From Gemmatimonadota bacterium (lineage in GTDB: Bacteria; Latescibacterota; UBA2968; UBA8231), in the NCBI GenBank assembly GCA_002712305.1, contig PATE01000022.1, positions 1-21,328 of the forward strand: a stretch of 21,328 bases of DNA. The letters run 5' to 3'. The first letter of the stretch is position 1, and each line of letters opens with the position of its first letter. Below, piece after piece: positions 4,459 through 20,431 of this stretch. A model generated the notes under the pieces. That model was not told the DNA's origin and did no database searches. It was given only the letters and a program-made list of their open reading frames with translations. A program made the position numbers and the translations under genes.

Positions 4459-7116
4459 ATGCCCCGAGATACGAGCGAAAAACGCAAGCGCCAGTATCAG
4501 GAGATCAACGAGTACCGCGATCTCCTACAAGCGCCAGACCGCTTCGAGTCCGGGTTCACGGCCAAGACCATCGTCGGCGTCCTCTTCATCGCCTTCATCA
4601 TGACGCCTGGACAGATGTATCTGTCTCTGGTGACCGGGATCGGCATCGGCGAGGCGGCTCAGTGGGTGACGGTCATCCTCTTTCTGGAGATCGCCAAGCG
4701 ATCTTTCACGACGCTGCGCCGGCAGGAGATCTTCCTGCTCACGTACGTGGCCTCGCAGCTGATCGTGCGCGCGGAGACGGGGACTTTTCTGCAGCTGATC
4801 TGGCGCCAGTATTTCGTCGGCTCCAAAGAGGCTGTGCGTTTCGGGCTGCAGGAGAAACTCGTCAACCTCAAATTCATGGGGTACAGCTGGTTCTCTCCGT
4901 CGCCGGACTCGGCAGCGATCGTCGAGCGCACCTTCTTCCACGTCGACTGGGCGCTGCCGATCGGTCTGCTGGTCATGGGCATCATCGTTGCCAGGGTGAC
5001 CTGGTTCACCTCCGGGTACGTCCTGTTTCGCCTGGTATCGGACCGCGAGCAGCTGCCCTTTCCCACCGCCCCGCAGTCAGCGTTGGCGTCGATGGCCCTG
5101 GCCGAGGAGAGCGGGTCGGAGGAACAGACGTGGAAATGGCCTTGCTTTCTCATTGGTGCCACCATCGGCATGGTATTCGGTCTGATCTACGTGGGGGTCC
5201 CCGCCCTGACCGAGACCTTTGCGGGCAAGAAGGTGACGGTCCTGCCCATCCCCTTCGCCGACCTGACGCCGATGCTGGGACGATTCGTGGGGGCGACGCC
5301 GATCGCCATCAGTTTCTCTCTGGCCCCGATCTTCGCCGGTTTGCTGCTGCCGTTCTGGAGCGTCATGGGATCCTTCGCAGGGGTTCTGCTGTTCATGATC
5401 ACGTCGCCGCTATTACACCACTACGGTTTCATGCCGCGGTGGGTGCCGGGAATGGGGGCCGTGCAGACGCAGATCGTGGCCGGCGTCGATTTCTGGCAAC
5501 CCTTCGGGATGGGCATCACACTGGCGGTCGCCGTCATCAGCATTACGCAGGTCATCCGGGCTGGACGGGAGCGTCGTGAAGACCGGGCCGGCGCCGCACG
5601 CTCCGAGCCGGGCATGTGCAAGCATCCCGATTGTCACCAGGATGCCCAGGTCCGCGGCTATTGCATCAAGCACCTCGGTCGCGGCGACTTCCCGCTGTGG
5701 ATCTGCCTCACCCTGTTCTTTGTTGCGGCGGCCTACCCGATCGTGCTGGCCAAGACTCTGTTTCCCCTGCTTGTGAGCACAAGTCTGCTCGTCGTCATCC
5801 TCCTGCTGGCCTTCGTCTACGCGCCGATCATGTCTTTCGTCTCGGCGCGACTTGACGGATTGATCGGGCAGAACATCCAGATTCCGCATCTGCACGAGGC
5901 AGCCGTGTTCATGACCGGCTACCGAGGCGTGGAGATCTGGTTCGTGCCGCTGGCAGGCTCCGACTTCGGAGGCGGAGCAGAGACGTTTCGCATCGTCGAA
6001 CTCACGGGGATGCGTTTCACGAGTCTGCTGAAAGCGGAACTCGTGATGATACCGATCGTGCTCGGAGCCAGTCTCATGTACTGGAGCTTTCTGTGGAGGC
6101 TGGCTCCCATTCCATCAGATGCCTACCCGTACGTGCAGACATTCTGGCCGGCGCGTGCCTTCCAGGAGGCGGTGAGGTATTCGGCGACCCAGTACAGTCA
6201 GATGTGGCGTGCGGGCGAGCAGGTCGAAGGGGAGTTGGTCGCTCCCGGCGAGGTGGTGTGGAGTCCTGCCAATCTGCGCGACAACTCGCTGTATTACTGG
6301 CGGGTACGGCTTTCGGACGAGTTGGGTGTAAGGAATCCCGATCTCCGCGAATACGGACCGTGGTCGAGGACCGGTCATTTCTACACTGACTTTACCGGAG
6401 CGGGCGACGTACCCGCCCCGGTGATCGCCGTTGCCTCAGATGAGAATGAGAGGACAGCGCACCTGCCGGGGGTCGAGTTGACAGGGCCGGCGCCGGGAGC
6501 GACGGTGGTGACCCACGAGACCTACCTGCGAGTGAGGGTGCCCGCCGATTGGGACGAACGACTGGCGGTCGTGTTCGAATTGGACACGGATCCCGATTTT
6601 GATGGCGGCTTCTTCCAGGGATCCACGGACAGGCCTGTGTTCTTCGAGATCTACTGGAAGGACCTGCGCTTTACGGGTGACAATAAGGACGACGATCACG
6701 ACGGTCGCATCGACGAGGAATACCTGAATCAGAAGGATGATGACGGGGATGGCTTCATCGATGAGGACCTGCACCACCCAATCCGCGGAGAGAAATGGCC
6801 GATCCTGGTACTGGGAGCCGTGTTCGGACTCGGGTTCTACGCAATCCTGGGCATCTTCGGTATGCCCATGTTCTTCATCTGGGGATATATCCGCGCCGTG
6901 GCATCTGCGGGGGCTGCTACCTTCTTCACGTTGATCACGGAAGTGATCGGGGCCCTGCTGGCGAAGTACTATTTCTGGCCGCGGTATGGCACCCAGCAGT
7001 GGCGTCAGTACGCTATGGTTCTGGCCGTCGGCTTCGGCGTTGGGATATCGCTGGTCGGAATGGTCTGCGCCTCCGTGCTCATGGTTTCCAAGGGAGTATC
7101 ACCGACGAGTTTTTGA
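4459..7116 (+). CDS. OPT/DUF6785-like multi-pass transporter with FN3-like and Ca-loop insert
   Basis: This 885-residue membrane protein has about a dozen hydrophobic segments (for example 36-60, 163-182, 228-250, 280-318, 350-366, 413-459, 525-545, 781-800, 851-876). The cytoplasmic-type REQLPFPTAP motif (196-205) resembles the E-x-L-x-F/Y-P signature of the oligopeptide-transporter-like DUF6785 group and matches HERLQYP in the membrane protein at 18497-20431. Two features are unusual. A Cys/His cluster, CX4CX9CX2H (C387, C392, C402, H405), sits in a loop and could bind zinc. A soluble insert of about 230 residues (550-780) lies between late membrane segments: a fibronectin-III-like piece with LYYWRVRLSD and GPWSRTGHFYT, a second beta-rich piece, then two acidic loops, DDDHDGRIDEE (744-754) and DDDGDGFIDED (760-770), of the EF-hand/thrombospondin-3 type. 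It heads a rightward cluster with a phosphoesterase and two PhyH enzymes. The ribosome binding site is weak. Transport function is by family resemblance; the cargo is unknown. Confidence 0.75.
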   Translation: MPRDTSEKRKRQYQEINEYRDLLQAPDRFESGFTAKTIVGVLFIAFIMTPGQMYLSLVTGIGIGEAAQWVTVILFLEIAKRSFTTLRRQEIFLLTYVASQLIVRAETGTFLQLIWRQYFVGSKEAVRFGLQEKLVNLKFMGYSWFSPSPDSAAIVERTFFHVDWALPIGLLVMGIIVARVTWFTSGYVLFRLVSDREQLPFPTAPQSALASMALAEESGSEEQTWKWPCFLIGATIGMVFGLIYVGVPALTETFAGKKVTVLPIPFADLTPMLGRFVGATPIAISFSLAPIFAGLLLPFWSVMGSFAGVLLFMITSPLLHHYGFMPRWVPGMGAVQTQIVAGVDFWQPFGMGITLAVAVISITQVIRAGRERREDRAGAARSEPGMCKHPDCHQDAQVRGYCIKHLGRGDFPLWICLTLFFVAAAYPIVLAKTLFPLLVSTSLLVVILLLAFVYAPIMSFVSARLDGLIGQNIQIPHLHEAAVFMTGYRGVEIWFVPLAGSDFGGGAETFRIVELTGMRFTSLLKAELVMIPIVLGASLMYWSFLWRLAPIPSDAYPYVQTFWPARAFQEAVRYSATQYSQMWRAGEQVEGELVAPGEVVWSPANLRDNSLYYWRVRLSDELGVRNPDLREYGPWSRTGHFYTDFTGAGDVPAPVIAVASDENERTAHLPGVELTGPAPGATVVTHETYLRVRVPADWDERLAVVFELDTDPDFDGGFFQGSTDRPVFFEIYWKDLRFTGDNKDDDHDGRIDEEYLNQKDDDGDGFIDEDLHHPIRGEKWPILVLGAVFGLGFYAILGIFGMPMFFIWGYIRAVASAGAATFFTLITEVIGALLAKYYFWPRYGTQQWRQYAMVLAVGFGVGISLVGMVCASVLMVSKGVSPTSF

Positions 7117-18496: not shown

Positions 18497-20431
18497 TTAC
18501 TCATAGATCAGCTTGTACACCTGATTGCCCGTCATCCCGGTGAAGTAGTCGACGATCACCCAGAAGCCCATCGAAACAAACTGACCAATGACGAGGCCCA
18601 CGAAGAATGGTTTGCCCTTCTGGTAGAGTCCAGGGCCCCCATACTTCAGAATGAGCCCCTTGATCAGCCACGACAGGAAGACACTCAGCATGATCGCATC
18701 CGTCATCCACATCGAGCTGATGGGCAGGCTCATCGGATGAATCGGAAACCCAAGATAGCGCTGTCTGAGCCACATCAGCAGTCCCATCAAGCCGCCACCA
18801 TAGGCAGTCCAGATCCATCCTGTCCAGTTGGGGCCTGCCGGGTTCAGTATGTTCCGGGAGGTGAAATTGAAGGGATAGTGTACGAGGCCCCGGAAGAAAC
18901 CGCTCAGATTAATCGCGCCATGGCTATACCCCAGGGCCACCTGCATCCAGATCGACCCGATCGCACTGACCAGAACTGCCACCAGAATGGCCCACAGCAG
19001 TACGCGCCGCCGACCGCCGATGTGTTCTTCGGCGAGCTTCAGGGCGTTGGCGCAAGCAGCCATCAGGAAAATGCGCAACTCCCCAGCCCACACGAAGGTG
19101 TAGCCCAGAGCGGTTACTCCTTGCCCGCCCAGGGCTTCTACCCCGAAACCGGAGACCATGAAATTCCCCGGGTTCATCGGCGCCCTGGTGATGAAGAAGC
19201 CGCCCTCGGCCACCATGCGTGTGAGACCGATGAAGATCACGAAGGCAACGAAGAGGGTCAGGCCCGCTGCCCACGGAGCCAGGCCCGTCTGGCACAGCCA
19301 CCACCACATGAATCCACTGCCTCCCAGCAGAGTGAAGACGGCGGTTCGGTACGACATCATTTCGGCGCTGTCATCGACCTGATCATCGCCGCGAAAAGCC
19401 TTGCGGAAGACGGCGCGCAGGTGTCGGCGGCCCATCCAGAGACCCCAGAACACGAAGACGAACATGGCCCCCATGCTCTGGTGACCCAGCAGTGGCACAG
19501 TGACCCATTCCATGTGCTCGTTGCTGGAGACCCCCAGGTATTCGAGCGTGCCTTCCTGCATCTTGGCGATGAGGTTGATCAGCCAGATCCCCAGGGAGAT
19601 GTCCCGACTCAGAAAGTACGTGAAGCCAACCGTCGCGAAGCTCAGAGACGGCAGCACATAGGTGGTGCGGGGGAAAAAGGGCAGGGCCGTATCCAGCGGG
19701 ATGTCAGGTACACTGGGGTCGTAGTCGTGTAGGGCGATGAAACAACCGACGGTGAAGGGAATGCTCACTCCAATCCAGAAGGAGAAGTAGCGAAACAGTG
19801 GCGGCAGCAATCGCCCCTTCTCCTGGGCGATCAAAGCCAGCGATGGCTGCATCAGCGGATACTGCAAGCGCTCGTGCTGCATCCACTGCTGCCGGAGGAT
19901 GACCATCGCCGCGATCATCACCATATACAGCGCCAGCAGAAACGGCGCCCAGGCCATCAGCGAGGGGAGCCACGCATCCCAGGCGATTGCACCCTGAGGA
20001 TTCCCCTCGTAGAAGTCCTGGATCGCCCTCGGATCCTGGGGGACCAGCCAGTCGGGGACGTGCGGCATGAACACGTCCGCCCACCTGTTCTCGGGCGTGG
20101 CGTAGTAGCGGGCGCCCGTCAAATACGGAATGAAGAAGGACGTGAGCCCCATGGACGGGATCGTGGCCGCCGCCAGCGCCATGATGTAAACGAGGGTGAC
20201 TTCAGCAGTGGAAAGGTGCCAGGGGCGGCGCAACCAACCCATCACGGGGTTCAGCACCGCCACCAGAACGAACAGAATGAACAGCGCGATCGGGGAAGCG
20301 AAATCCCGGGCCATGCCGCTTCCGCGCACGATGTTGTCCCCGAGAATCACGCCGAGGCCGACGAACAGACTTACCGCCGTCCCGATCACGAACGCACGTC
20401 TGGTCACACCTTCAGATGGCCCTTGAATCAC
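18497..20431 (-). CDS. DUF6785/DUF6784 multi-pass membrane protein
   Basis: This 644-residue membrane protein has about 12-14 hydrophobic segments (for example 12-31, 45-63, 73-98, 152-178, 214-235). It has the layout of the DUF6785 family with a C-terminal DUF6784 region: RRRVLLWAILVAV near 480, a Gly-rich GWIWTAYGGGLMG, then HPMSLPISSMW and IKGLILKYGGPGLYQKGKPF close to the C terminus. The HERLQYPLMQPS motif (186-197) matches REQLPFPTAP in the larger membrane protein at 4459-7116, so both belong to one transporter-like superfamily. This copy lacks the Cys/His loop and the beta-sandwich/Ca-loop insert. The GTG start is two bases after the stop of the upstream acetyltransferase gene, so translation is coupled. 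Cargo unknown; an oligopeptide-transporter-like role is inferred from distant resemblance. Confidence 0.82.
   Translation of the reverse strand: MIQGPSEGVTRRAFVIGTAVSLFVGLGVILGDNIVRGSGMARDFASPIALFILFVLVAVLNPVMGWLRRPWHLSTAEVTLVYIMALAAATIPSMGLTSFFIPYLTGARYYATPENRWADVFMPHVPDWLVPQDPRAIQDFYEGNPQGAIAWDAWLPSLMAWAPFLLALYMVMIAAMVILRQQWMQHERLQYPLMQPSLALIAQEKGRLLPPLFRYFSFWIGVSIPFTVGCFIALHDYDPSVPDIPLDTALPFFPRTTYVLPSLSFATVGFTYFLSRDISLGIWLINLIAKMQEGTLEYLGVSSNEHMEWVTVPLLGHQSMGAMFVFVFWGLWMGRRHLRAVFRKAFRGDDQVDDSAEMMSYRTAVFTLLGGSGFMWWWLCQTGLAPWAAGLTLFVAFVIFIGLTRMVAEGGFFITRAPMNPGNFMVSGFGVEALGGQGVTALGYTFVWAGELRIFLMAACANALKLAEEHIGGRRRVLLWAILVAVLVSAIGSIWMQVALGYSHGAINLSGFFRGLVHYPFNFTSRNILNPAGPNWTGWIWTAYGGGLMGLLMWLRQRYLGFPIHPMSLPISSMWMTDAIMLSVFLSWLIKGLILKYGGPGLYQKGKPFFVGLVIGQFVSMGFWVIVDYFTGMTGNQVYKLIYE

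Follow-up and report, generated by a model that had tools for sequence, protein, structure and literature searches.

An OPT-like membrane protein from Latescibacterota carries an FN3-type insert with its two halves in swapped order

Large soluble domains are rarely built into the membrane core of a secondary transporter, and a literature search for an OPT/YSL protein with an FN3 insert found none. In the OPT/YSL transporter YS1 of barley, the core and scaffold domains are connected by the arm helix H7, which forms part of the wall of the substrate pocket close to the outer face; a tyrosine on H7 appears to cap the pocket, and an elevator movement has been proposed (PMC9691689). For tandem domains, TNfn3 included, simulations have shown that the terminal part of one domain can co-fold with the first part of its successor as a circular permutant, and that longer linkers favor such folding across tandem domains (PMC4862688). 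The analysis described here connects two families of unknown function, the P0001 family and DUF6785, with an FtsX-type partner and with the OPT superfamily, which includes proton-coupled importers of peptides and of metal chelates such as iron chelates.

The window (21,328 nucleotides of contig PATE01000022.1, the whole stretch of DNA that was analyzed) encodes on its forward strand P0001, a putative OPT-like transporter of 885 amino acids with a periplasmic-type insert (positions 4459 to 7116), delineated from its open reading frame and translation and from its ortholog. A first-pass annotation had read this gene as an 885-residue membrane protein with an OPT-like transporter core and an unusual architecture. 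The reading frame and the motifs that it named are indeed found at the places given, and the results below support the core, as a probable divergent member of the OPT superfamily, as well as the unusual architecture. The ortholog, in Latescibacterota UBA8231, is the closest match outside the source genome (92% identity). Whole-gene dN/dS between the two is 0.12, and 0.09 across the membrane core; P0001 and its ortholog are under purifying selection.

A relative of P0001 was present in 58 of the 64 genomes of the phylum that were searched, and the source genome itself has five. Two contigs labeled Gemmatimonadaceae/Gemmatimonadetes (L018 and L020) appear to come from the same family as the source Latescibacterota genome and are probably misnamed records. 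Viral contigs and plasmids were also searched for P0001 relatives, and none were found. P0001 had no match above threshold in Pfam, NCBIfam, or PDB, and PDB sequence searches with P0001, a relative, the family profile, and the native or rotated insert profile returned no match.

Similarity to the OPT superfamily emerged from weaker profile matches that recur in order. Searched alone against Pfam OPT (PF03169, curated cut-off 25.8 bits), the C-terminal piece of P0001 aligned over residues 784 to 871 (6808 to 7071, forward strand) with OPT positions 533 to 620, at 16.3 bits and an E value of 0.0041. When 30 related genomes were searched, the P0001 family was matched repeatedly at fixed profile positions: OPT 526 to 622 aligned directly after the insert, consistently among family members; OPT 134 to 413 was matched upstream of the insert site in an insert-free member; and OPT 99 to 239 was matched in some DUF6785 relatives. 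Across members of these two related families the three segments are thus collinear over the membrane core. In the genome search two relatives scored above the OPT cut-off, with 35.1 and 27.5 bits; the L059 match was not reproduced by hmmscan, and P0001 and the other scanned members fell below the cut-off. Mapped by hand from the coordinates, the intervening OPT positions 413 to 526 (113 positions) correspond to P0001 residues ~463 to 577 together with the insert, which is therefore an addition to the OPT core. By these profile matches P0001 is probably a divergent member of the OPT superfamily, though alone it lies below the OPT cut-off.

The window also encodes a DUF6785/DUF6784 protein (18497 to 20431, reverse strand; Pfam 410 bits), which is distantly OPT-like and, as the first-pass annotation had noted, has no such insert. 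Profile comparison of the P0001 family with DUF6785 showed a weak similarity, with an hhalign probability of 39% and an E value of 3e-4, and a direct DUF6785 (PF20581) search of P0001 gave no match. The source genome has ~16 DUF6785 genes (17 places), a large expansion of an uncharacterized OPT-like family, and one of these genes carries an in-frame TAG (C92:20824-21414).

In relatives, the P0001-like gene usually follows a gene of ~1500 residues that combines a PA domain with a peptidase-like region and an FtsX permease domain; the FtsX signature was found upstream in 37 of the 43 relatives with enough flanking sequence, and a DUF6785 gene often stands beside the P0001-like gene. A conserved three-gene module, consisting of DUF6785, the ~1500-residue PA/M28-like-FtsX protein, and the P0001-like protein, was observed on five contigs (L051 2207-11875, L052 2280-11658, L054 5214-13701, L056 5904-15729, and L057 1415-10391), and no ABC ATPase gene was seen beside it on any of these. 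Inspected by eye, the M28 metal/zinc ligands of the partner proteins (L051 to L058) look lost, suggesting an FtsX permease with a pseudo-peptidase fused to it. No FtsX-type partner gene accompanies P0001 or its ortholog; in both, the gene order is CBM9 - GHL10 - transporter, within a glycan-type catabolic cluster. This makes P0001 an orphan copy, with its insert kept under selection. A role of the insert solely in binding the neighboring FtsX protein was rejected, because the orphan copies keep the insert under selection.

The near-constant pairing with the FtsX/pseudo-peptidase gene would also be expected if proteins of the P0001 family did not transport anything and instead acted as a membrane scaffold or an assembly factor for their FtsX-type partner. 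We regard this as unlikely, since most of the core is covered by OPT matches in collinear order and since P0001 and its ortholog stand under purifying selection in a catabolic cluster that lacks the partner.

The insert itself comprises residues 578 to 779 (6190 to 6795), about 200 soluble residues between membrane segments; by hydropathy, the flanking hydrophobic segments end at ~546 and resume at ~781. The first-pass annotation had assigned residues 550 to 780 to an FN3-like insert. The soluble FN3-type insert is supported, and the first ~28 residues of that span (550 to 577) are better described as a conserved membrane-proximal segment that also occurs in insert-free relatives. The latter (660 to 685 residues) keep the segment up to 577 and bridge the site with ~11 to 19 residues.

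Two FN3-type halves can be distinguished within the insert. The first (residues 578 to 643; 6190 to 6387, forward strand) resembles the C-terminal half of an FN3 domain, strands E-F-G, and contains the motifs LYYWRVRLSD (residues 611 to 620; 6289 to 6318) and GPWSRTGHFYT (residues 633 to 643; 6355 to 6387). Compared with canonical FN3s it reached an hhalign probability of 97.5, and in relatives it was matched by positions 63 to 101 of Ig_Rha78A_N (PF25788), with a best E value of 2.6e-4 in one member and a best score of 22.1 bits, below the curated cut-off of 27.4. It is followed by a linker (6388 to 6462, forward strand) that varies in length among relatives, and then by a second half (residues 669 to 733; 6463 to 6657, forward strand) that aligns in register with the N-terminal strands A-B-C-C' (score 23.1). 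Of the two, the first half has by far the stronger score; the second alone has an hhalign probability of only 14 to 16%, and fn3 (PF00041) did not match the insert. The halves are constrained (dN/dS against the ortholog of 0.19 and 0.30) and the linker is relaxed (0.61). One relative (L020 4417-7359) has ~90 extra residues inside the second FN3 half.

The order of the halves was evaluated against ordinary FN3 domains from large proteins of the same phylum. These reference domains are fn3/Ig_Rha78A_N by Pfam, one of them above both cut-offs, and have the canonical order; they were collected with a profile containing both halves, and the matches used covered the first half only (model positions 87 to 160). 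In profile-profile comparison (hhalign) the insert in its native order scored 70.8 over 43 columns, versus 83.1 over 97 columns, collinear throughout, after rotation. When the columns of the second half were shuffled 300 times, the rotated score was 71.5 ± 0.96 (maximum 77.5) and none of the 300 reached 83.1; reversal of the second half, as a control, gave 71.5. The second half alone scored 23.1 versus a null of 9.6 ± 1.8 (maximum 19.7, 300 shuffles), and 143 decoy windows of an unrelated soluble protein reached at most 15.2. As a statistical result, therefore, the halves stand in swapped order: instead of the canonical seven strands A to G, the insert runs E-F-G and then A-B-C-C'. With Pfam, the Ig_Rha78A_N match on rotated inserts was not extended into the second half; the swap is visible only in profile-profile comparison.

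The simplest reading of these alignments is that the insert would be a naturally circularly permuted FN3 domain, because neither half has room for its missing strands: only ~10 to 20 residues separate the first half from the conserved membrane-proximal segment upstream, and in the loop-free class only ~10 separate the second half from the next helix downstream. The pattern of selection on halves versus linker agrees with a single permuted domain. Structure predictions were of very low confidence, both for the insert as a single sequence (pLDDT 32) and for full P0001 with five close relatives (AlphaFold, pLDDT 31), and the fold proposed here is accordingly that suggested by the alignments.

The same halves could also be the remains of two FN3 domains in tandem, each cut short at its outer end, with two incomplete, unpacked half domains serving only as a spacer for the acidic loops. 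As such an origin would predict, the first half begins and the second half ends with sequence resembling the C'-E junction. We nevertheless consider the reading doubtful: a half sandwich should not be stable on its own, selection constrains the two halves but not the linker, and both halves were found in every insert-bearing subfamily. Moreover, since simulated tandem-domain ends, those of TNfn3 among them, can fold together as a circular permutant (PMC4862688), a tandem FN3 insertion would itself offer a route to the permuted domain.

Behind the second half lie two acidic loops, DNKDDDHDGRIDEE (residues 741 to 754; 6679 to 6720, forward strand) and NQKDDDGDGFIDED (residues 757 to 770; 6727 to 6768, forward strand). 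The first-pass annotation had pointed to two D-x-D-x-D-G loops between membrane segments, and both are borne out, with acids conserved in 20 relatives. Residues D744, D746, D752, E753, E754, D760 to D762, D764, G765, D768, E769, and D770 are invariant in all 20 loop-bearing relatives, and D748 is kept in 19 of the 20, the remaining one having an unread residue. At least two D-x-[DN]-x-D-G matches occurred in 0.015% of 20,000 composition shuffles of P0001. The loop region (residues 738 to 779) is the most constrained part of the insert, with a dN/dS of 0.05 versus the ortholog. Of the two loop types suggested earlier, EF-hand and thrombospondin type 3 (TSP3), the pattern D-x-D-x-D-G-x-x-D-E fits the latter better; the EF-hand reading was rejected on spacing, as a glutamate is needed at position 12, where P0001 has Y755/L771. 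Pfam gave no TSP3 or EF-hand match to the loops. By their pattern the loops are of calcium type, and they may bind calcium. A Cys/His knuckle, C387-x4-C392-x9-C402-x2-H405 (5617 to 5673, forward strand), is present in the K/R-rich loop 366 to 412 in all 20 members of the loop-bearing clade; it has a weak Zf_WRKY19 match below cut-off and is a possible metal site.

Across the family the insert occurs in four states: none; FN3; FN3 with acidic loops; and FN3 with acidic loops plus two PDZ domains within loop 1. With the insert and knuckle columns left out of the tree building, these states require three changes on the tree, the minimum possible, and the knuckle changes on the branch on which the acidic loops change. 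The PDZ matches are significant in the PDZ clade (PDZ_6, 1e-8 to 1e-10), and this one clade (L056 5904-9149 and L034 to L040) has the PDZ pair set inside the first acidic loop. Relatives are placed as if each part of the insert had been added once, on a tree that gives no direction and cannot separate gain from loss; the lack of an insert in OPT and DUF6785 proteins suggests that it was gained rather than lost.

The position of the insert relative to the membrane was approached through YS1 and the charge of the loops. The last membrane helix before the insert (6025 to 6096, forward strand; hydropathy) would be the equivalent of YS1 TM10, as mapped from the OPT positions and PMC9691689. The following segment, PIPSDAYPYVQTFWPARAFQEAVRYSAT (residues 550 to 577; 6106 to 6189, forward strand), resembles an arm helix, is conserved in insert-free relatives, and would be the equivalent of H7: with the insert removed it lies ~130 residues from the C-terminus, as H7 does in HvYS1 (an estimate from residue numbers). 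Since the segment matches the distance of H7 from the C-terminus, the insert would lie over the outward cavity. The density of K/R is 0.18 to 0.36 in the presumed inner loops and 0.03 to 0.06 in the H7 region and other outer loops, which assigns residues 1 to 36, 79 to 89, 366 to 412, and 837 to 853 to the inside and the region ahead of the insert to the outside; the mean net charge of the insert is -14.7. The K/R distribution and the analogy with YS1 support an extracytoplasmic insert, as the first-pass annotation had it, and place the insert probably outside the cell, after the H7-equivalent segment. The weak point of this sidedness is the stretch 783 to 838, where the membrane crossings are uncertain and one fewer would make the insert cytoplasmic.

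Specifically, if residues 783 to 817 crossed once rather than twice, the K/R-rich loop 838 to 853, taken as inside, would put the insert inside as well, where it might be regulatory. FN3 domains, TSP3-like loops, and PDZ domains are, however, characteristic of extracytoplasmic bacterial proteins. A cytoplasmic insert is also improbable given its acidity, the K/R-poor H7 region, and the 'W' topology of OPT/YS1, in which the pocket-lining H7 is outside (PMC9691689).

The first-pass annotation had further expected separate beta-sandwiches, and two full, independent ones with strands too divergent to see would suit the ~160 residues that the insert has apart from its acidic loops (roughly what two small sandwiches need), but this is very unlikely, as neither half has space for a full FN3 within the upstream and downstream margins given above and each half aligns in register to a different part of a single domain, which together they would make up in swapped order.

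We therefore lean, with somewhat more confidence than doubt, toward an OPT-type elevator importer with a circularly permuted FN3 insert that acts as a docking platform or lid. P0001 would be a secondary importer of the OPT superfamily, probably with the elevator movement proposed for barley YS1. The chain would enter a single FN3-type beta-sandwich at strand E and run through E-F-G; a loose linker of ~25 residues would then cross the domain to A-B-C-C', and after C' the chain would return to the membrane by way of the two calcium-type acidic loops, which calcium may stiffen. Opening the fold at the C'-E loop would bring both ends to one end of the sandwich, so that the insert would fit a short loop between membrane helices. 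Located on the outer face directly after the H7-equivalent segment, the sandwich would most likely serve as a docking platform, or as a lid, at the opening of the cavity of an OPT-type importer. In most relatives it may bind the neighboring pseudo-peptidase/FtsX protein, and in the orphan P0001 a diffusible periplasmic partner or substrate. Compared with substrate capture, which the first-pass annotation had suggested, a function in docking or as a lid is no less likely, because nearly all relatives adjoin an FtsX-type gene.

The insert would sit at a hinge that maps to the substrate pocket, and for each module a single phylum contains both relatives that have it and relatives that lack it. 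On balance, we would picture a permuted FN3, opened at C'-E, behind the pocket-capping arm helix of an OPT-type elevator transporter, which then became a landing site for calcium loops and a PDZ pair. If so, the family records the stepwise gain of a periplasmic docking head by a transporter, and the way the head is fitted, as a permuted sandwich whose ends meet, is testable.

Each part of P0001 can be set against a described system. Like thrombospondin type 3 loops, its acidic loops are in tandem and keep the D-x-D-x-D-G-x-x-D-E spacing, but they have no cysteines. As in bacterial FN3/Ig_Rha78A_N domains (PF00041, PF25788), both halves of the insert align in register with canonical Latescibacterota FN3s; in contrast to them, the halves are swapped, a single domain stands in a loop of a membrane protein, and scores stay below the curated cut-offs. 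The DUF6785/DUF6784 proteins (PF20581, PF20580) share with the P0001 family a core of similar size and, in relatives, the same operon, but lack the insert. With the OPT/YSL transporters (PF03169; barley YS1, PMC9691689) the P0001 family has in common collinear matches on both sides of the insert and the estimated distance of the arm-helix segment from the C-terminus, whereas it differs from them in a similarity mostly below the curated cut-off and in a soluble insert of 150 to 390 residues after the arm helix.
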